DNA of 64,000 bases from Seonamhaeicola algicola (lineage in GTDB: Bacteria; Bacteroidota; Bacteroidia; Flavobacteriales; Flavobacteriaceae), in contig NZ_VOSC01000019.1 in NCBI RefSeq assembly GCF_007997385.1, positions 327,864 through 391,863 of the forward strand. Direction: 5' to 3'. Position 1 is the first letter of the stretch, and every line of letters begins with the position of its first letter. Below, in pieces: positions 53,746 through 62,481 of the stretch. The translations under genes and the position numbers were made by a program. A model generated the notes under the pieces. It saw only the letters and a list, made by a program, of their open reading frames with translations, made no database searches and had not been told where the DNA came from.

Positions 53746-54477
53746 ATGAACACAGATACATCTACTTGGTTTTCATCATGGTTTGACACGCCATACTACC
53801 ACATTTTATATAAAGATAGAAACGATACCGAAGCACATGCCTTTATGGACACGCTTACCAACTACCTTAACATACCTGAAAATGGTACTATTTTAGATTT
53901 GGCTTGCGGACGCGGAAGACATGCCAGATATTTAAATAAAATTGGTTATGATGTTACTGGTGTAGATTTAAGCGAAAATAGCATTGCTTATGCTAAAAAA
54001 TATGAAAACCATAGGTTAAAATTTAAGGTTCATAATATGTGCCAGCCTTTTAACAAACAATTTGACGCTGTTTTTAATTTATTTACCAGTTTTGGGTATT
54101 TTGATGATGATACTGATAATCTTAAAACTATAAAAGCCATTAAAGCTAATTTAAACGATTTTGGTTTTGGAGTCATTGATTTTATGAATAGCGATTATGT
54201 TATTGAAAACCTAGTACCAGAAGAAGTTAAAACCGTAAACAACATAACTTTTAATTTAAAACGCTATGTTGAAGGAAACCATATTATTAAAGATATTTCA
54301 TTTACCGATAATGACCATTTTTACAATTACAAAGAACGTGTTAGAGCTTTTACCTTAGAAGATTTTGAGCAATTATTTGAAGAAGCTAACGTACACCTTC
54401 TTGATGTTTTTGGCGATTATAACTTACGTAAGTTTAGTAAAAAAACTTCCGAAAGATTAGTAATGATTTTTAAATAG
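53746..54477 (+). CDS. SAM-dependent methyltransferase, class I
   Basis: A 243-residue methyltransferase. SAM motif I reads ILDLACGRGRHARYL (about residues 44-58), followed by VTGVDLSENSIAYAKK, an acidic second motif, and FNLFTSFGYFDDD. Type 11/25 methyltransferases of this sort methylate small molecules. Substrate not predictable. A good AAAGGA site lies five bases before the start. It is followed 44 bases later by the ZIP transporter gene on the same strand, so it may be the first gene of that unit. Confidence 0.82.
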   Translation: MNTDTSTWFSSWFDTPYYHILYKDRNDTEAHAFMDTLTNYLNIPENGTILDLACGRGRHARYLNKIGYDVTGVDLSENSIAYAKKYENHRLKFKVHNMCQPFNKQFDAVFNLFTSFGYFDDDTDNLKTIKAIKANLNDFGFGVIDFMNSDYVIENLVPEEVKTVNNITFNLKRYVEGNHIIKDISFTDNDHFYNYKERVRAFTLEDFEQLFEEANVHLLDVFGDYNLRKFSKKTSERLVMIFK

Positions 54478-54521: not shown

Positions 54522-55196
54522 ATGAATAATTATCTTTTACCTTTTTTAGCAGTAGTTTTAGGTGTAATAATTGCACGCTTTACTAAAAACACAAAATCTT
54601 GGAATACTAAATTACTACTATCTTTTAGTGGCGCTTTTTTATTAGCACTAACGCTGTTTGAACTATTGCCCGAAGTATATCATCACCTAGAAACAAAAAC
54701 AACAGGTCTCTACATTATGGCTGGTATTATGCTTCAAATAATTTTAGAACTTTTCTCAAAAGGCGCTGAACATGGGCATGTACACAACAATGAAAACGAT
54801 AAAACGTTTCCATACGCGTTGTTTTTAAGCTTATGCATTCATAGCTTTTTAGAAGGTTTCTCTATACACGACCATAATGATATGGTTTACGGTGTTTTAA
54901 TTCATAAAATACCCATTGCTACTATTATAAGCATGTTTTTGCTAAAAAGTAATTATGATAAATTTCAAATAGGCGCTTTTTTAATAGTATTTGCATGTAT
55001 GACCCCTTTAGGTACACTTATTTCAAATATTTACGGAGATATGCATAACACCATAAGTATAATAAATGCTTTTGTAATTGGTATGTTTTTCCATATTTCA
55101 ACAACTATACTATTTGAAAGTAGTGATGGCCACAGATTTAATACCTCAAAGTTTATAGCTATAATTTTAGGTGTTGGTATTGCCTATTTAATATAA
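54522..55196 (+). CDS. ZIP-family metal transporter
   Basis: A 224-residue membrane protein with about eight hydrophobic segments and a His-rich cytoplasmic-type loop (GAEHGHVHNNENDK, about residues 86-99). The ZIP signature in helices IV and V is present: HSFLEGFSIHDHN (about 108-120) and VLIHKIPIATIISMF (about 125-139), which carry the metal-binding His and Glu residues. ZIP proteins move Zn2+ or other divalent ions into the cytoplasm. It opens the metal island that continues to 61979; orientation and spacing suggest a shared unit with the DUF4268 gene after it. Confidence 0.88.
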   Translation: MNNYLLPFLAVVLGVIIARFTKNTKSWNTKLLLSFSGAFLLALTLFELLPEVYHHLETKTTGLYIMAGIMLQIILELFSKGAEHGHVHNNENDKTFPYALFLSLCIHSFLEGFSIHDHNDMVYGVLIHKIPIATIISMFLLKSNYDKFQIGAFLIVFACMTPLGTLISNIYGDMHNTISIINAFVIGMFFHISTTILFESSDGHRFNTSKFIAIILGVGIAYLI

Positions 55197-55221
55197 ATGC
55201 ACATTTTATTAACTAAATAAC

Positions 55222-55650
55222 ATGTTTAGTAAAGAAGAATCTAGATTACTGAGACAAGAATTTTGGACTAGCTTTGGAAAATCTTTCCCTAGAAAATGGA
55301 TATTATACAACACCAAATTAAAAGGTTTTAGTTTTAAATTTCATTTTGATACAAAAAAAGCTTTAGTAGCACTAGATTTAGAAGACGATTTAGAACACCG
55401 CATTAAATACTGGGAAAAACTAGTTGCCTTAAAAACCATTTTACAAGACACGTACTTACCCGAAGCCATTTATAATGAAACCTATATTTTAGAAAACCAT
55501 AAAGAAATTTCTAGAATTTATATTCCTTTAGAACAAAAAGTATCTATTCACAACAAAAACACGTGGCAAGATGTTATGATATTTTTCAATGAAAAAATGA
55601 GCCTTTTTGAAGCTTTTTTTGAAGAATATAAAGATGTTATTGAAGGCTAA
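55222..55650 (+). CDS. DUF4268 protein
   Basis: A 142-residue soluble protein: FWTSFGKSFPRKWILYNTKL near the start, then FHFDTKKALVALDLEDDLEH and IRYWEKL-type text, as in DUF4268 proteins, some of which are linked to nuclease-like folds. Aromatic and charged, no signal peptide, no metal motif. It lies 25 bases after the ZIP gene and before the operator region of the MerC operon. Function unknown. Confidence 0.78.
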   Translation: MFSKEESRLLRQEFWTSFGKSFPRKWILYNTKLKGFSFKFHFDTKKALVALDLEDDLEHRIKYWEKLVALKTILQDTYLPEAIYNETYILENHKEISRIYIPLEQKVSIHNKNTWQDVMIFFNEKMSLFEAFFEEYKDVIEG

Positions 55651-55730
55651 CCTACCTATTACAAACCAATTACATACGCACTAGTATTTTTTACAAACGG
55701 CAAACAAAAAATACAGGTAACAAAAAAACA

Positions 55731-55751
55731 TAATGCAACCATGTTGCATTA
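55731..55751. promoter_or_regulatory. Perfect 9-3-9 palindrome, candidate Zur operator (site 1)
   Basis: TAATGCAAC at 55731-55739 and GTTGCATTA at 55743-55751 are exact reverse complements around the spacer CAT. The site ends 12 bases before the -7 element and so covers the -33 region. Dyad size and the metal genes it precedes fit a Fur-family repressor; zinc (Zur) is the best guess because of the COG0523, FolE, ZIP and PA4064-4066-like genes. It differs from the E. coli Fur and Zur boxes. Inference from symmetry and context. Confidence 0.62.
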
Positions 55752-55763
55752 AAACAATTAGGC

Positions 55764-55771
55764 TATATTTG
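55764..55771 (+). promoter_or_regulatory. -7 element of the MerC-FolE-COG0523 operon
   Basis: TATATTTG is an exact -7 match, 26 bases before the start of the MerC-like gene. It lies between and partly inside the two palindromic operator sites, so bound repressor would block it. Confidence 0.55.
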
Positions 55772-55787
55772 CAATACAGTTGCATTA
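55767..55787. promoter_or_regulatory. Second, imperfect operator copy (site 2)
   Basis: The right half GTTGCATTA at 55779-55787 is identical to the right half of site 1. The left half ATTTGCAAT keeps the TGCAA core, with the same three-base spacing. It overlaps the end of the -7 element and the expected transcription start. Two copies, centre to centre 36 bases apart, strengthen the case for a repressor. Confidence 0.55.
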
Positions 55788-55797
55788 ATTTTTATAA

Positions 55798-56208
55798 ATG
55801 AAAATAGCCATAAAAAAACCTGACACTTTAGGTGCTTTAGCTAGCACACTTTGTTTAATACATTGTTTATTAACCCCATTTATATTTTTAGCACAAACTA
55901 AAGTTGCTGCTTGCTGCGCAACTAACGGTGTTCCTAATTGGTGGAAATCTATAGACTTTATTTTTCTAATAATTTCATTTTTTGCAGTATATCAATCAGC
56001 TAAAAACAGTACAAAAAAAACTGTAAAAATGGCTTTGTGGTTTTGCTGGAGCCTTTTATGCTTTTTAATTATAAATGAAAAATTAGCGTGGTTTCACCTC
56101 CCTGAAATACTTATATACCTAACCGCAATTTCTATGGTTATACTTCATGTTTACAACCTTAAATATTGCCAATGTAAAACTGATAATTGCTGTACAAATA
56201 ATGAATAA
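55798..56208 (+). CDS. MerC-domain membrane protein
   Basis: A 136-residue inner-membrane protein with about four hydrophobic segments. The first carries LGALASTLCLIHCLLTPFIF (about residues 11-30) with a Cys/His pair in the membrane, as in MerC, and a second Cys pair CCAT follows at about 39. The C-terminal tail is Cys-rich (KYCQCKTDNCC). MerC moves Hg2+, but there are no other mercury genes here; chromosomal relatives in this phylum are better explained as zinc or metal uptake proteins. First gene of the operon behind the two palindromes, overlapping folE by eight bases. Confidence 0.84.
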   Translation: MKIAIKKPDTLGALASTLCLIHCLLTPFIFLAQTKVAACCATNGVPNWWKSIDFIFLIISFFAVYQSAKNSTKKTVKMALWFCWSLLCFLIINEKLAWFHLPEILIYLTAISMVILHVYNLKYCQCKTDNCCTNNE

Positions 56209-56863
56209 AGATTTAATAGAAAATATAGGAGACAATCACATTTCTTCAAATGTAAACACACCACTATTACCAACTGCTTTTGATAAAAATGATGATGAAA
56301 AAATTAAAACCATTCAGCATCATTTTTCAAAAATAATGGAAACATTAGGCCTAGATTTAACTGATGATAGTTTATCTGGCACGCCATACCGTTTTGCTAA
56401 AATGTATGTAAAAGAATTATTTTATGGCCTAAACCCAGAAAACAAACCTAAACTATCGGTTTTTGAAAATAAGTACAGCTACAACAAAATGCTTGTTGAA
56501 CAAAATATAACTATAGATTCTTCTTGCGAACACCACTTTTTACCAATTACAGGGCACGCACACATTGCATACATACCTAAAGATAAAGTTATTGGGCTAT
56601 CAAAAATTAATAGGTTAGTTGATTATTACGCACACCGCCCGCAAGTACAAGAACGCTTATCACTTCAAATTTTAAAAGACCTCCAAACTATTTTAAACAC
56701 TGAAGATGTTATTGTAATGATAGCCGCAAAACACCTTTGCGTATCTTCCAGAGGTATAAAAGATAAAGATAGTTTTACAACAACTATTGAATATGGTGGC
56801 TGCTTTGAAAAAAAAGCTTACCGAAATGAATTTTTAAACATTGTAAACAATACAACCAAATAA
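56201..56863 (+). CDS. folE: GTP cyclohydrolase I, zinc-type
   Basis: A 220-residue FolE from the start [10 protein letters not shown]; a frame extension to 56147 lies inside the MerC gene and is not used. It makes dihydroneopterin triphosphate from GTP, the first step of folate synthesis. The zinc ligands Cys109, His112 (in SSCEHHF) and Cys180 (in KHLCVSS) are all present, so it needs zinc, unlike the FolE2 type. Catalytic QERLSLQI is intact. Its start ATGA overlaps the MerC stop. Its place in front of a COG0523 gene matches the known link in which COG0523 proteins keep a zinc-dependent FolE active under zinc shortage. Confidence 0.93.
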
Positions 56864-56883
56864 AGACGCTAATCAATATCAAC

Positions 56884-58101
56884 ATGAAAAAATTACCCGT
56901 AACCGTATTAAGTGGCTTTTTAGGTGCAGGAAAAACCACGTTGTTAAATCATATTCTTCATAATAAAGACGGTTTAAAAGTAGCCGTTATTGTTAATGAT
57001 ATGAGTGAAGTTAATATTGATGCGCAATTTATTGAAAATGAAAACACATTATCTAGAACTGAAGAGAAATTAGTTGAAATGAGCAACGGTTGCATTTGTT
57101 GTACCCTACGTGAAGATTTGATGGTTGAAGTTGAAAAACTAGCAGCACAAAATAAATTTGACTATTTATTAATTGAAAGCACAGGCATTAGTGAACCTAT
57201 TCCTGTTGCCCAAACATTTACTTTTGAAAGTGAAGACGGCACAATTGATTTAAGCCGTTTTAGTTACATTGACACCATGGTTACTGTAGTTGATGCTTTC
57301 AATTTTTTAAAAGACTTTTCAAGTCCTGATTACTTAACAACAAGAGCGCTTACAAATATTGAAGGAGATAACCGCACCATTGTTAATTTACTAACAGACC
57401 AAATAGAATTTGCTAATGTTATTTTAATAAACAAAACAGATTTAGTTACTAAACAACAACTAGAAGAATTAAAAGCCATTATTAATTCATTAAATCCTGA
57501 AGCAAAAGTTATTTTCACAAAACAATCTAATGTTGCGTTAAATAACGTTATTAATACTGGTTTGTTTGATTATGCTAAAGCTGAAGCATCGGCAGGTTGG
57601 ATAAAAGAATTAGAAAACGAACACACCCCTGAAACCGAAGAGTATGGTATTGGTTCTTTTGTTTTTAGAAGCAAAAAGCCATTTCATCCAGAGCGTTTTC
57701 TAAACTATTTAAACACAGCTTTTCCACAAAACATTATACGCAGCAAAGGTTTATTTTGGCTAGCTTCAAGACCCAAACAAGCGCTTATTTGGAGTTCGGC
57801 AGGTGGTTCTTGTAAAGCAGACAACGCCGGTGTATGGTGGGCATCAATGCCGTTTTCTGAACGTATAAATTATGCTGCTTTTATTGAAAACCAAAAAGAC
57901 ATTGAAGCCGGTTGGGATGCCCAATTTGGAGACAGAAAAATAGAACTGGTTTTTATTGGCCAATATTTAGAAAAAAACGACATAATTAATCAACTAAACA
58001 CCTGCCTTTTAACCGATGATGAAGTAAAACAATGGAAAAATAATGCATTCACAAAAATTGATAGGTGGCCAATTGAAAATTTTGAAACTTCAAATGCTTA
58101 A
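56884..58101 (+). CDS. COG0523 GTPase, putative zinc metallochaperone (ZigA/YciC type)
   Basis: A 405-residue G3E-family GTPase. Walker A is GFLGAGKTT (residues 11-19), the metal motif CICC is at residues 70-73 in SNGCICC, and the base-recognition motif is INKTD (about 180). A CobW C-terminal domain runs from about residue 250 to the end. This architecture is the ZigA/YciC/ZagA zinc chaperone group, which loads zinc into client enzymes; one known client type is FolE, the gene just upstream. A B12-related role is unlikely, as no cobalamin genes are near. Confidence 0.88.
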
Positions 58102-58123
58102 CTTTAGCAATTAAAACATATGT

Positions 58124-58654
58124 ATGTCTGCTATTAAAATAGGAATTATTACTGTTAGTGATAGAGCTAGCGCTGGCCTTTATGAAGATTTAAGTGGTAA
58201 AGCCATTATAAATACCCTAAATAACTATTTAAAATCACCTTGGAACGAAGTTTACAGCATTATTCCTGATGAACAAACAATTATTGAAGAAACCATTATA
58301 AACATGGTAGATAATGAACAGTGTTGTTTGGTTGTTACAACAGGAGGCACAGGACCCGCTAAACGCGATGTTACTCCTGAAGCTACCGAAGCCGTTTGTG
58401 ACAGAATGATGCCTGGGTTTGGTGAACTTATGCGTGCAGAATCTTTAAAATATGTACCAACCGCAATTCTTTCAAGGCAAACTGCAGGCCTTAGAGGTAG
58501 TAGTTTAATTGTAAACTTACCTGGAAAACCAAAATCTATTCGCGAGTGTTTAGATGCTGTTTTCCCTGCAATACCATATTGTATTGATTTAATGGAAGGT
58601 CCTTTTTTACAGTGTAATGAGCAGGTTATAAAACCATTCAGACCTAAAAAATAA
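58124..58654 (+). CDS. mog: Molybdopterin adenylyltransferase (Mog/MogA family)
   Basis: A 176-residue protein of the MoaB/Mog fold. It has IGIITVSDRASAGLYEDLSG near the start, the conserved TTGGTGPAKRDVTPEAT (about residues 73-89, with the GGTG and the catalytic Asp), and SLIVNLPGKPKSIRECLDAV. Mog activates molybdopterin by adenylation before molybdenum insertion. No other molybdenum cofactor gene is in the window, and the gene is tightly packed between two COG0523 GTPases, 22 and 7 bases away. Its role in a metal-stress operon is unexplained. Confidence 0.88.
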   Translation: MSAIKIGIITVSDRASAGLYEDLSGKAIINTLNNYLKSPWNEVYSIIPDEQTIIEETIINMVDNEQCCLVVTTGGTGPAKRDVTPEATEAVCDRMMPGFGELMRAESLKYVPTAILSRQTAGLRGSSLIVNLPGKPKSIRECLDAVFPAIPYCIDLMEGPFLQCNEQVIKPFRPKK

Positions 58655-58661
58655 CCAAAAA

Positions 58662-59567
58662 ATGGAAGCTATTATTACCATTGTTGGATTTTTAGGTGCT
58701 GGCAAAACCACACTTTTAAAGTATTTAATTGAAAAATTTCAAGCTGAAAACTGGCAGCCATTTGTAATTTTAAACGATTATGAAAACGCCAATATGGATG
58801 TACAACAATTTAGAGAGCAACTTAATTTAAACACCATAAAACCTTTAAGTGGTAGCTGTATTTGTTGCAGTGGTATTGTTGAACTTAGAAACACTGTTAA
58901 CCGCATTCCTGAAAGAAAAAATGGCATTACGCTTATTGAGGCTAACGGCACTTCAGATGCTTGTAGCTTAATGGAATTTTTGGGTGTTGGCCTAAACAAC
59001 AGGTTTTTACCACCAGTACAAATTTCGGTAGTTGATGTTAAAAATTGGCAAAAGCGCCATGAGCATAATGAATTAGAAGCTAACCAAATACAAGTATCTT
59101 CACTCCTAGTTCTAACACATTTAGATGCTGTTAGTTTAAAAAGGAAACAAGCCGTTGTTTCACAATTGAAAATATTAAATCCTTCGGCTGAAATTTTTGA
59201 TGCTAATAGCTTAAATGTTTCATTGCTTCCAAAACTTGTACCTTCAAAAAACACATCAAATAAAATAAATCATTTAAAATCGCATTGGGCGTCATGCTCT
59301 GTAGATTTACCTATTTTACCTTCAGAAAATAGTATTAAAACTATTTGCAAAGCTTTACCAAAAAGTATTTTACGTGTTAAAGGTTGTGCAAAAATTGCCA
59401 ATAATGAAAACTACACGTATTTTGAGCGTAAACCAGACGGTAATATAACCATAAGGCCTTTTAAAGGACAACCAATTACGGGCGCAAAACTACTTACCAT
59501 TGGTCCAGGAAGCAAACCATCGGTTTTAGAAAACGCCATTCAATCTAGTATTCATTTAGTAAAATAA
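58662..59567 (+). CDS. Second COG0523-family GTPase, divergent
   Basis: A 301-residue G3E-family protein with Walker [10 protein letters not shown] (residues 9-17) and the metal motif CICC at residues 66-69 (GSCICCSG). Where family members read NKxD for base recognition it reads LTHLD, so the nucleotide preference may differ or be weak. Near residues 238-300 there is only a short C-terminal domain (KGCAKIANNENYTYFERKPD), smaller than the CobW_C domain of the first copy. It may be a distinct chaperone with its own client. It is the last gene of the operon; the next gene has its own promoter. Confidence 0.8.
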   Translation: MEAIITIVGFLGAGKTTLLKYLIEKFQAENWQPFVILNDYENANMDVQQFREQLNLNTIKPLSGSCICCSGIVELRNTVNRIPERKNGITLIEANGTSDACSLMEFLGVGLNNRFLPPVQISVVDVKNWQKRHEHNELEANQIQVSSLLVLTHLDAVSLKRKQAVVSQLKILNPSAEIFDANSLNVSLLPKLVPSKNTSNKINHLKSHWASCSVDLPILPSENSIKTICKALPKSILRVKGCAKIANNENYTYFERKPDGNITIRPFKGQPITGAKLLTIGPGSKPSVLENAIQSSIHLVK

Positions 59568-59572
59568 TCTTT

Positions 59573-59580
59573 TATTTTTG
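59573..59580 (+). promoter_or_regulatory. -7 element of the ABC transporter unit
   Basis: TATTTTTG is an exact match, five bases after the COG0523 stop and 11 before the next ATG. The predicted leader is about five bases. The palindrome of the upstream operon is not repeated here, so these genes may be controlled differently or by read-through. Confidence 0.48.
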
Positions 59581-59591
59581 CATTTTTTATC

Positions 59592-60221
59592 ATGATTCAA
59601 ACGCAAAATTTAACGTTTCAATATAAAAATAGTTCAAATGTATTATCATTTCCCAACATACATTTAAAAACAAACGAACACTTACTTATTTTAGGAAAAT
59701 CTGGCATTGGCAAAACTACCTTGCTGCATCTACTAGCTGGTTTATTAAGCCCAAAAACAGGTAATATTGCTATAAACAATGTAAATATTTCTACTTTAAA
59801 CAGTAAAAAACTAGATAAATTTAGAGGTAGTAATATTGGTATGGTTTTTCAAAAAAAACATGCCATACCTTCGTTAACCGTTTTTGAAAATTTAAAGGCA
59901 CGTTTATACTTTTCAAAAAAAGAAAAACCAGATAGTTATTTAAATCAAACTTTAGAACAATTACATTTAACCGACTTTAAAAATAGTAAGGTGAATGAAA
60001 TTAGTGAAGGACAATTACAACGCTTAGGCATAGCACTTTCGGTAATACATAATCCGCAAATTATTTTGGCCGATGAACCCACTTCTAGTTTAGATAATGA
60101 AAACTGTAAAGCCGTTATAAAACTACTTATAGAACAGGCCGAAAAAAACAACGCGCACTTAATTGTTATTACGCATGATGAGCGTATTATGCCATTTTTT
60201 AATAACACCCTTACATTATGA
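59592..60221 (+). CDS. ABC transporter ATP-binding protein (LolD/MacB type)
   Basis: A 209-residue ABC ATPase. Walker A is LGKSGIGKTTLL (about residues 35-46), the Q-loop is IGMVFQKKHAIPS, the signature is NEISEGQLQRLGIALSVIHN (about 135-154, with SEGQ in place of the usual SGGQ), Walker B is IILADEPTSSLD and the switch His is in VITHDERI. This is the type seen with MacB/LolD-like permeases. It is followed with a four-base overlap by the permease gene. Relatives in the Pseudomonas PA4064 and Vibrio zrg clusters are Zur-regulated. Confidence 0.88.
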   Translation: MIQTQNLTFQYKNSSNVLSFPNIHLKTNEHLLILGKSGIGKTTLLHLLAGLLSPKTGNIAINNVNISTLNSKKLDKFRGSNIGMVFQKKHAIPSLTVFENLKARLYFSKKEKPDSYLNQTLEQLHLTDFKNSKVNEISEGQLQRLGIALSVIHNPQIILADEPTSSLDNENCKAVIKLLIEQAEKNNAHLIVITHDERIMPFFNNTLTL

Positions 60222-61555
60222 ATATTTGGAAAATAAGCATAAAAAACCTAAAAAATAAAGCATTTTACACAGGTTTAAGCATTATAATTTTAGCCTTAAG
60301 CATCACATTACTACTTGGTATTAAACAAATACAGCAATCTTTTAAATATCAAACTGAAAATAATTTAGGTAATATTGATATGGTTATTGGCGCAAAAGGC
60401 AGCCCATTGCAACTCATTTTAGCATCGGTATTACACATTGATAATCCTACTGGAAATATTTCGTATACCGAAGCAAAAACGTTGGCTAAAAACCGATTGA
60501 TAAAATCGGCTATCCCAATATCTTATGGCGATAATTACAAAGGCTACAGAATTGTTGGAACCAACAACAACTTTTATACACTTTATAATGCTGAATTAAA
60601 TAACGGCCGTTTTGCAAATACAGCCATGGAAGTTGTAATTGGTGCTACCATTGCCAACAAGCTAAACTTAAAATTAGGCGATACTTTTAAAAGCGCTCAT
60701 GGTTTAATTGATAATACTGTTGATGTACACGATAACGAGTTAACCGTTGTTGGTATTTTAAAACCTACAGAAAAAGTAATTGACCGCTTAATTATTACTC
60801 CCTTAGAAACCATTTGGGATGTACACAACCACAATGATGAAGTGCATAATGAAAATGATGAAAATGAACATAATCATGATGAAGATGCTCATAAAACTGA
60901 AGAAGAACACACACACGAGCATACCCACAATGATACACATGAACATGAAGAGCATCATAACATCGAAAAACATTCAGATAATCATGAAGAAGATCATGCG
61001 CATGAAAACAAGCAAATTACAGCTTTATTAGTAACCTTTAGAAACCCTATGGGCTTACTAACTTTACCCAGAAAAATAAACGACACTAGCAATTTACAAG
61101 CTGCTTTACCTAAATATGAATTAGATAGATTATATGAATTTACAAGTATAGGTTTTAAAACCATTACCTGGATAGCCTATTTAATTTTAATAATTTCTGG
61201 CATCACAATTTTTATAAACTTATATAAAATGGTAAAAGAACGCGCTTATGATTTGGCCTTATTACGCAGTTATGGTGCTAGTAATTTTCAGCTAATTAAA
61301 ATGGTTTTTTATGAGGGTTTTATAGCCGCATTTTTAGCATTTATTCTTGGGCTAACTATTGTTAAAATTGGCACTTATGCCCTAATTAAATTTAGTAACT
61401 TAGGCATGAAAGCACACATTATTCAACCATTAAACATACAAGATGGTATACAAATTGCGGTATTAGTTTTTATAATGGTAACTTTGTCTATAGCGTTTGC
61501 TATTTACCCCATTTTAAAAATGAATATTTCAACTATTTTAAGTAATGAAAAATAA
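60218..61555 (+). CDS. ABC transporter permease with histidine-rich loop (MacB/FtsX fold)
   Basis: A 445-residue inner-membrane protein: one membrane segment near residues 16-36, a large extracytoplasmic domain, then three segments (about 310-332, 362-385, 408-430) as in the MacB/FtsX/LolE fold. The extracytoplasmic domain contains an insert at about residues 200-265 with 18 histidines among Asp/Glu/Asn (HEHTHNDTHEHEEHH), a clear metal-binding stretch. This matches the Zur-regulated ABC permeases related to PA4065. The ATPase gene overlaps it by four bases (ATGA) and the DUF3299-like gene overlaps its end by 11. Confidence 0.87.
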   Translation: MNIWKISIKNLKNKAFYTGLSIIILALSITLLLGIKQIQQSFKYQTENNLGNIDMVIGAKGSPLQLILASVLHIDNPTGNISYTEAKTLAKNRLIKSAIPISYGDNYKGYRIVGTNNNFYTLYNAELNNGRFANTAMEVVIGATIANKLNLKLGDTFKSAHGLIDNTVDVHDNELTVVGILKPTEKVIDRLIITPLETIWDVHNHNDEVHNENDENEHNHDEDAHKTEEEHTHEHTHNDTHEHEEHHNIEKHSDNHEEDHAHENKQITALLVTFRNPMGLLTLPRKINDTSNLQAALPKYELDRLYEFTSIGFKTITWIAYLILIISGITIFINLYKMVKERAYDLALLRSYGASNFQLIKMVFYEGFIAAFLAFILGLTIVKIGTYALIKFSNLGMKAHIIQPLNIQDGIQIAVLVFIMVTLSIAFAIYPILKMNISTILSNEK

Positions 61556-61979
61556 AATATTAATTGGCTTATTATTAACAACTTGTGTTTCATTCAGTCA
61601 AACCAATATAACTTGGAATGATTTGGCAAAAGTTACATTTGAAGAGAAATTTTTACCTGCTTATGATGAAGCTTTTTTAGTACCAACGTTTTCAAACACT
61701 TTAAAAGCTTTAGAAGGAAAATATGTTACCATTAAGGGATATTTTTTAAATATTGCTCCAGAAGAAAAAATATATATACTTTCAAAAGGCCCTATGTCTT
61801 CTTGCTTTTTTTGCGGTGTTGGTGGCCCAGAAACAGCAGTAGAATTAGAATTTGATAATACGCAAAACTTCAAAACCGATAATATTGTTTTAGTTACCGG
61901 CAAGTTAAAATTAAATGCCGTTGATGTAGATCATTTTAATTATATATTAACAGATTGCACTTTAAAATTAACACAGTAG
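61545..61979 (+). CDS. Small exported protein, DUF3299-like
   Basis: A 144-residue protein with a signal peptide (about residues 1-19, ending SFSQ). The mature part has the pattern of DUF3299: LKALEGKYVTIKGYFLNIAP, a Cys pair in SSCFFCGVGGPETAVELEFD (about residues 84-103), and VTGKLKLNAVDVDHFNYIL. Proteins of this type accompany MacB-like ABC genes in Zur-regulated clusters. It probably works with the ABC pair in the periplasm. The partner DUF2796 zinc-binding protein found in those clusters is absent here, perhaps replaced by the His-rich loop of the permease. Confidence 0.8.
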   Translation: MKNKILIGLLLTTCVSFSQTNITWNDLAKVTFEEKFLPAYDEAFLVPTFSNTLKALEGKYVTIKGYFLNIAPEEKIYILSKGPMSSCFFCGVGGPETAVELEFDNTQNFKTDNIVLVTGKLKLNAVDVDHFNYILTDCTLKLTQ

Positions 61980-61986
61980 GTTATAC

Positions 61987-62481
61987 TTAAATAATAGTTT
62001 TTACCATTTCATAATCATCCATAACAAAGCCATTTCCAATATCTGCAACCACAGATCTTTTGTTTATAAAACCTAATGCTTCATAAGCTTTTATTGAATT
62101 TTCATTATCAACATTAACCGTTAATCTTATTGCTTTTAGGTTGAATTTTTTAGCTTTATCTTCAATAAAATTCATGGCTGTTTTTCCTATTTTTTTTCCT
62201 CTACAGCTACTCAAAACATAAATTTTACTTAAAAATAATATTGTATCTTCTTTTTTTATTGAAATATATCCAACAGGCTTTTTATTGTATTCAAGTAAAT
62301 AATACATATAATGATTGGTTACCTGTGATTTTATTGCCGCAGCAGATTGAAATTTTTCAAGCATATAATCAACCTGTGCCAACCCAATTATTGGTATGTA
62401 ATGCTCGCGCCAAATTGTATCGGCCAATGTAGCTATGGTTTCAAAATCCTGGTTTGTTTTTGCAATAGAAATAGTTATCAT
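61987..62481 (-). CDS. GNAT-family N-acetyltransferase
   Basis: A 164-residue acyl-CoA-dependent transferase. The acetyl-CoA motif is IYVLSSCRGKKIGKTAMNFI (about residues 91-110, with the RGKKIG core), followed by LRLTVNVDNENSIKAYEALGF (about 117-137). Acceptor not predictable. Its stop codon lies seven bases from that of the DUF3299-like gene, convergent. It is followed, on the minus strand, by nothing in the window; the hemolysin-III-like gene upstream is three bases away. Confidence 0.86.
   Translation of the reverse strand: MITISIAKTNQDFETIATLADTIWREHYIPIIGLAQVDYMLEKFQSAAAIKSQVTNHYMYYLLEYNKKPVGYISIKKEDTILFLSKIYVLSSCRGKKIGKTAMNFIEDKAKKFNLKAIRLTVNVDNENSIKAYEALGFINKRSVVADIGNGFVMDDYEMVKTII

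Follow-up and report, generated by a model that had tools for sequence, protein, structure and literature searches.

Within a 64,000-nucleotide stretch of the Seonamhaeicola algicola genome (contig NZ_VOSC01000019.1, positions 327,864 to 391,863; hereafter the window), positions 55798-61979 very probably constitute a single operon that is repressed by Zur and serves life under zinc shortage. The predicted operon comprises eight genes, from a merC-like gene through the gene for a small secreted protein, and all eight are probably co-transcribed. These genes form the downstream part of a run of ten plus-strand open reading frames (ORFs; 54522-61979), and the ORF calls agree with a preliminary description, made from the sequence alone, that had reported ten consecutive plus-strand genes with short gaps and several overlaps. 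The predicted operator, the promoter and the operon genes are as follows.

55734..55748, unstranded: predicted Zur box 1, TGCAACCATGTTGCA, a 15-bp palindrome that matches exactly (0 mismatches), includes the promoter TTG (55744-55746) and lies at the same position in relatives
55764..55771, plus strand: promoter -7 element TATATTTG, which fits the flavobacterial TAnnTTTG and whose final TG provides the first bases of box 2
55770..55784, unstranded: predicted Zur box 2, TGCAATACAGTTGCA, with 1 mismatch, 36 bp from box 1
55798..56208, plus strand: merC-like gene (Pfam MerC 8.9e-19; alignment; AlphaFold model)
56201..56863, plus strand: folE paralogue, type IA (zinc-type) GTP cyclohydrolase I (NCBIfam FolE 1.8e-81; 1fbx, E 1e-60)
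56884..58101, plus strand: ZigA-like COG0523 zinc metallochaperone GTPase, G1 (NF038288 568.7 bits; cobW 3.9e-58; NKTD present)
58124..58654, plus strand: mog-type molybdopterin adenylyltransferase (NF006932 3.3e-86)
58662..59567, plus strand: second COG0523-like protein, G2 (cobW 4.2e-27; YjiA 3.2e-15)
59592..60221, plus strand: MacB/LolD-type ABC ATPase (Pfam ABC_tran 3.5e-31; LolD 5.3e-45)
60218..61555, plus strand: MacB-type permease with a His-rich insert (MacB_PCD 4.5e-13; FtsX 5.1e-13)
61545..61979, plus strand: small secreted protein with a conserved CFFCG motif (alignment), PA4066-like by position only

Two near-perfect palindromes of the form TGCAACnnnGTTGCA lie in the leader (55734-55784), within the 147-bp gap 5' of merC, and coincide with the regulator site (55731-55787) that had been suggested for this region. 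The consensus for the -7 element of flavobacterial promoters is TAnnTTTG; the promoter found here, TTG-N17-TATATTTG, is of this flavobacterial type, with box 1 lying over the TTG and the final TG of the -7 element opening box 2. Relatives have the same two-box layout, placed between merC and a divergent zur gene, and among 62 box pairs at their loci the spacing is 38 bp in 38 and 39 bp in 10, with TAnnTTTG ending on a box in 46. Gene counts for the relatives were taken over 80 named loci around G2; because these include near-duplicates, many Aquimarina and some short contigs, the counts do not represent independent events. A box is present at the start of 43 of the 45 merC genes at the named loci. 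As expected of a Zur regulon, the palindromic operator overlies the promoter, is common to the members of the regulon and is conserved in relatives. Among the Rfam matches at E ≤ 1, no relevant riboswitch, of the ZTP class or any other, was found in the leader.

The genome also encodes a Zur-type Fur protein, as a Zur regulon requires. The preliminary description had proposed looking for a Fur-family gene in this genome; there are three, of which the one for the Zur-type protein (L003, C25:48688-49062; PF01475, 1.3e-8) lies on another contig and carries a box of its own in the leader. The CxxC pairs of this protein are conserved in the alignment, and a profile of its family scores against solved structures of Zur/FurB (e.g., 2o03, 4mtd and 3mwm), with some Fur chains close behind. 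Across a sample of 151 genomes of the family, the exact box occurred in 18 of the 22 genomes with a close Zur homologue (above 170 bits) versus 26 of the 129 others (Fisher p=3.6e-8), and a reversed control pattern showed no association with the homologue in the same 151 genomes (p=1). Divergently oriented to the C25 zur gene are a small gene and genes for an ABC ATPase, a TonB receptor, two ABC-2 permeases and an AstE/AspA-type protein, most of which lie directly 3' of merC-folE in L045, L052 and L065. The C25 Zur protein itself resembles the Zur of other genera (L020, L052, L065).

Gene order in relatives links merC to zur and sets the upstream limit of the operon. Three further plus-strand genes precede the operator:

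53746..54477, plus strand: class I methyltransferase (Pfam Methyltransf_25 1.6e-13), an upstream neighbour outside the operon
54522..55196, plus strand: ZIP-family metal transporter (Pfam Zip 1.5e-19), a co-directed neighbour
55222..55650, plus strand: DUF4268 protein (Pfam DUF4268 3.7e-28), a neighbour sharing the ZIP gene's unit

Three congeners and three Tamlana species keep the order methyltransferase-ZIP-DUF4268, followed by an opposite-strand zur, the boxes and then merC-folE, and Tamlana sargassicola (L081) has exactly the order of the window plus zur between DUF4268 and merC. The simplest reading of this arrangement is that the S. algicola genome lost zur from its merC locus and kept the boxes. 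Linkage of the island genes recurs across the Flavobacteriaceae, so the scattering in all relatives that would have spoken against the preliminary description is not seen: over the named loci, merC was counted at 45, folE at 40, zur at 29, mog at 25 and ZIP, scored within 10 kb, at four. That description had treated MerC and Mog as odd additions to a zinc-limitation set, a view that does not hold, as merC normally comes first, 37 of its 45 copies have folE directly behind them, and 25 of the 80 loci contain mog. Some copies of the island are damaged or rearranged, namely a truncated G2 with an enlarged ZigA frame (L024:6303-10304) and a fusion of FolE with a remnant of the last gene (L020:7798-8151), which suggests that the islands are under ongoing turnover. 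At L026:5141-7493, a box separates zur from two genes divergent to it, one resembling HisI (phosphoribosyl-AMP cyclohydrolase; identified by eye only) and one for ZigA.

The idea of a coherent zinc-limitation unit is therefore retained for the eight genes, given the operator and the recurring linkage, and is dropped for ZIP and DUF4268. That all ten genes form one zinc-limitation operon is unlikely, even though they are co-directed with short gaps and ZIP is a plausible zinc importer. The gaps measure 25 bp for ZIP-DUF4268, 147 bp for DUF4268-MerC, 20 bp for FolE-ZigA, 22 bp for ZigA-Mog, 7 bp for Mog-G2 and 24 bp for G2-ABC; MerC and FolE overlap by 8 bp (FolE ATG at 56201), ABC and permease by 4 bp, and permease and last gene by 11 bp. 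Against the ten-gene arrangement, six related genomes have the opposite-strand zur inside the run, a gene order that led us to reject operon membership for ZIP and DUF4268; ZIP lies near G2 in only the four named loci; and no box with ≤2 mismatches occurs 5' of the methyltransferase-ZIP-DUF4268 block, in which the methyltransferase gene is co-directed and ends 44 bp 5' of the ZIP gene. ZIP and DUF4268 probably form a separate transcription unit. At its 3' end the run is bounded by a convergent acetyltransferase gene (61987-62481).

The families of the run were confirmed with Pfam and NCBIfam (ZIP, DUF4268, MerC, FolE, two cobW/COG0523 domains, Mog, ABC ATPase and a MacB_PCD+FtsX permease). The operon FolE carries SCEHH and HLC and so has the zinc ligands expected of type IA. 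Among 53 Zur-linked FolE proteins, all keep the Cys/His/Cys ligands except one, and one further copy is partial; therefore, the operon FolE is not a swap to a zinc-free enzyme. The genome contains four type-IA folE genes, three of them besides the operon copy, and in a tree the Zur-linked copies branch separately from the remaining folE genes of the congeners. None of the seven genomes of the genus yielded a zinc-independent FolE2. By analogy with Bacillus subtilis ZagA and with the cobW1 operon of Cupriavidus (PMC10882993), the likeliest arrangement is that FolE is loaded by the ZigA-like GTPase.

G1, the GTPase in question, has the GTPase motifs including NKTD, a CxCC motif and a CobW_C domain (3.7e-24), and is labelled only ZigA-like because its 568.7 bits fall below the cut-off of 600 bits of the NCBIfam ZigA equivalog (NF038288). 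In G2, Walker A and CxCC are conserved across an alignment of eight orthologues, and an invariant T152 H153 stands in place of the guanine-specificity motif NKxD. For this reason we call it COG0523-like, and strict guanine specificity appears doubtful. The best PDB matches of its structural model, which is of low confidence (predicted local distance difference test, pLDDT, 62), are YjiA.

The MerC-like protein scores 68.5 bits against a Pfam gathering threshold of 27.6, has conserved Cys and His residues (C19, H22, C23, C124, C126, C131 and C132) and is modelled by AlphaFold as four helices (pLDDT 77), with no significant structural match in the PDB; this membrane protein is a candidate zinc importer. 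The operon mog is a second copy beside the genome's 304-residue MoaC/MoaB-type protein, with the second homologue at C28:83106 near MoaA. The operon also has a MacB-type ATPase with a separate permease, as in the PA4063-4066 set; the permease bears a periplasmic insert with 18 His in 60 residues, and its orthologues carry the insert too. For the last gene, Pfam gave nothing at E ≤ 10, DUF3299 included, and no PDB relative emerged; none of nine orthologues matches DUF3299 at that threshold either, so the DUF3299 label that had been applied to it on the model of PA4066 is not supported.

Several observations weigh against Zur control of the operon. Operator sites were found by pattern search, with those of ≤1 mismatch listed genome-wide, and by count these are not enriched in this genome (8 seen; about 11 expected under a Markov model). 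Exact sites do exceed the model, with two in the genome and none in 4 Mb of simulated sequence; the case for the operator rests on position and conservation. Furthermore, the C25 Zur shares only ~53-54% identity with the merC-linked Zur proteins of the congeners, so recognition of the boxes in trans is our assumption. Finally, similar palindromes occur 5' of metal-efflux loci that carry another Fur-type protein, and a box alone therefore proves neither Zur nor the sign of regulation. Such palindromes were seen 5' of RND or P-type efflux loci at G000 C28:282539 (L012, L047) and at L055, L056, L058, L071, L072, L074 and L078, some of which carry a second Fur-type protein, and they possibly reflect a paralogous regulator with a similar operator.

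These points bear on the proposal that another Fur-family regulator, either Fur or the efflux-linked FUR paralogue L002, controls the operon, which would then answer to iron, to peroxide or to too much metal and not to a lack of zinc. We consider this quite unlikely: although the genome has three FUR proteins and L002 has a one-mismatch box some 6 kb away, the box of relatives sits between merC and an L003-type zur, L003 has a box in its own leader, and the gene contents are zinc-related. An operon for resistance to mercury or heavy metals, with MerC at its centre, could draw on the Pfam domain and on the palindromes 5' of RND/P-type efflux loci in other genomes. This is highly improbable, since the ten-gene run contains no mer genes (no MerA, MerR, MerT or MerP) and dozens of genomes show merC in linkage with zur, folE and genes for zinc chaperones. 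FolE and Mog both act in pterin routes, yet a molybdenum-cofactor or pterin operon that carries metal transporters by chance has very little to recommend it, as moaA and the MoaC/MoaB-type protein are encoded elsewhere beside no listed box, three other folE genes exist, and Mog is absent from most of the relatives' islands.

Zur-repressed expression of the eight genes, which we continue to prefer, would operate as follows. When zinc is ample, zinc-loaded Zur from C25 would bind the two palindromes over the -33 and -7 elements and block transcription; as zinc falls, Zur would be released and the eight proteins made. The MerC-like membrane protein may then bring in or pass on zinc, and the dedicated zinc-type FolE would keep folate synthesis running, probably loaded by the ZigA-like GTPase and perhaps with the help of G2. 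In the envelope, a metal or its carrier may be handled by the small secreted protein and by the MacB-type ATPase-permease pair, whose permease bears the His-rich periplasmic insert.

Other boxes in this genome (≤1 mismatch) lie 5' of a thioredoxin-reductase-like gene (C1:294485), of a small gene followed by a TonB receptor and two DUF4625 lipoproteins (C1:514565), and of a His-rich lipoprotein (C28:311483); boxes precede two TonB-receptor loci. Genes of two of these kinds are found beside the island in relatives: in L022, G2, ZigA, the ABC pair and the last gene form a contiguous block with the TonB2/DUF4625 genes, and a TrxR-like gene lies 3' of the same set in L031. The remaining one-mismatch sites fall within genes (L006, L009, L011) or beside an efflux locus (L012). 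A PF01297 (ZnuA-type) ABC system (G000 C30:519904-520716; L049) was considered as a Zur target and rejected, as it adjoins a DtxR-like regulator (identified by eye) and a TonB receptor and has no box of ≤1 mismatch in 14 kb; it probably serves manganese or iron, outside Zur control.

Box-bearing islands of relatives contain additional enzymes. One, a metal-free iota carbonic anhydrase, matches PDB 7c5x (E 2.7e-78) and, at a score below the cut-off, the NCBIfam model for metal-independent carbonic anhydrase; the biochemistry of this class is described in PMC8132391. The enzyme occurs, usually followed by an uncharacterised 164-residue protein, in L043, L057, L079, L028 and 11 of the 80 named loci, and in one congener (G156; L043) it lies between folE and the ZigA-like gene. 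The enzyme is absent from the S. algicola genome itself, and of ten full-length iota loci in the family sample four have a box of ≤1 mismatch nearby and six, several in small genomes, have none. Its presence in Zur islands suggests a zinc-sparing role. A PhoX-type phosphatase (L021:4582-6261 and 19 of the 80 named loci) and an LCIB-type carbonic anhydrase (L044/L045, a 238-residue protein) are also found inside Zur islands.

More tentatively, and with limited confidence, we propose a Zur regulon particular to marine Flavobacteriia, recognised by an operator of its own (TGCAACnnnGTTGCA, paired at ~38 bp). At its core would be a new zinc route, in which a MerC-like inner-membrane importer would supply a dedicated zinc-type FolE through ZigA and a G2-type partner that lacks the guanine-specificity motif, supplemented by species-specific zinc-free cassettes (the metal-free iota carbonic anhydrase, PhoX and the LCIB-type carbonic anhydrase). 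A specific operator and zinc-shortage regulon would thereby be proposed for a large group of marine bacteria; the open-access literature searched yielded nothing relevant on a Bacteroidetes Zur regulon or a MerC-Zur link. The proposal would also give MerC-like proteins a biological role outside mercury resistance and a genus without FolE2 a folate solution that keeps zinc (zinc-type FolE plus a chaperone), and the recurrence of iota carbonic anhydrase and PhoX in box-bearing islands makes the zinc-sparing idea directly testable.

Among known systems, the closest analogue is the Cupriavidus metallidurans cobW1 operon Op0317f_1 (PMC10882993), where a Zur-controlled COG0523 protein and a FolE paralogue share one operon with two Zur boxes, as here, and which holds a carbonic anhydrase, as do some flavobacterial islands. 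In that account, FolE is of the metal-promiscuous IB type, in contrast to the zinc-type IA enzyme here; MerC, Mog, a second COG0523-like protein and a MacB set are not mentioned in the portion consulted; and the Seonamhaeicola operon is without the CysS2, QueD and AllB of its counterpart. B. subtilis ZagA (YciC) is, according to PMC10882993, a COG0523 GTPase tied to zinc delivery to a zinc-dependent FolE in zinc shortage. B. subtilis also has the zinc-independent FolE2, whereas none was found in the Seonamhaeicola genus, and there was no ZTP riboswitch match in the operon region. The gene for G1 belongs to a different operon from Acinetobacter baumannii ZigA, on whose model it scores below the curated cut-off. 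MerC of mercury resistance has the Pfam MerC domain, four helices and conserved Cys in common with the protein studied here, which differs in its linkage to zur and folE and in having no mercury-resistance genes alongside. Pseudomonas aeruginosa PA4063-PA4066 (PMC11481552) and the analogous Vibrio cluster likewise place a split MacB-type ATPase and permease and a small secreted protein under Zur, and PA4064/PA4065 has been read as a Zur-regulated exporter (PMC11481552). Unlike that set, the flavobacterial genes have no PA4063-like gene alongside, the His-rich stretch lies inside the permease and the last gene has no DUF3299 match. Operator, linkage, gene order, domain content and the retained FolE ligands are shown by the sequence, and the operon is best read as a probable Zur-controlled zinc-limitation operon of a flavobacterial type.

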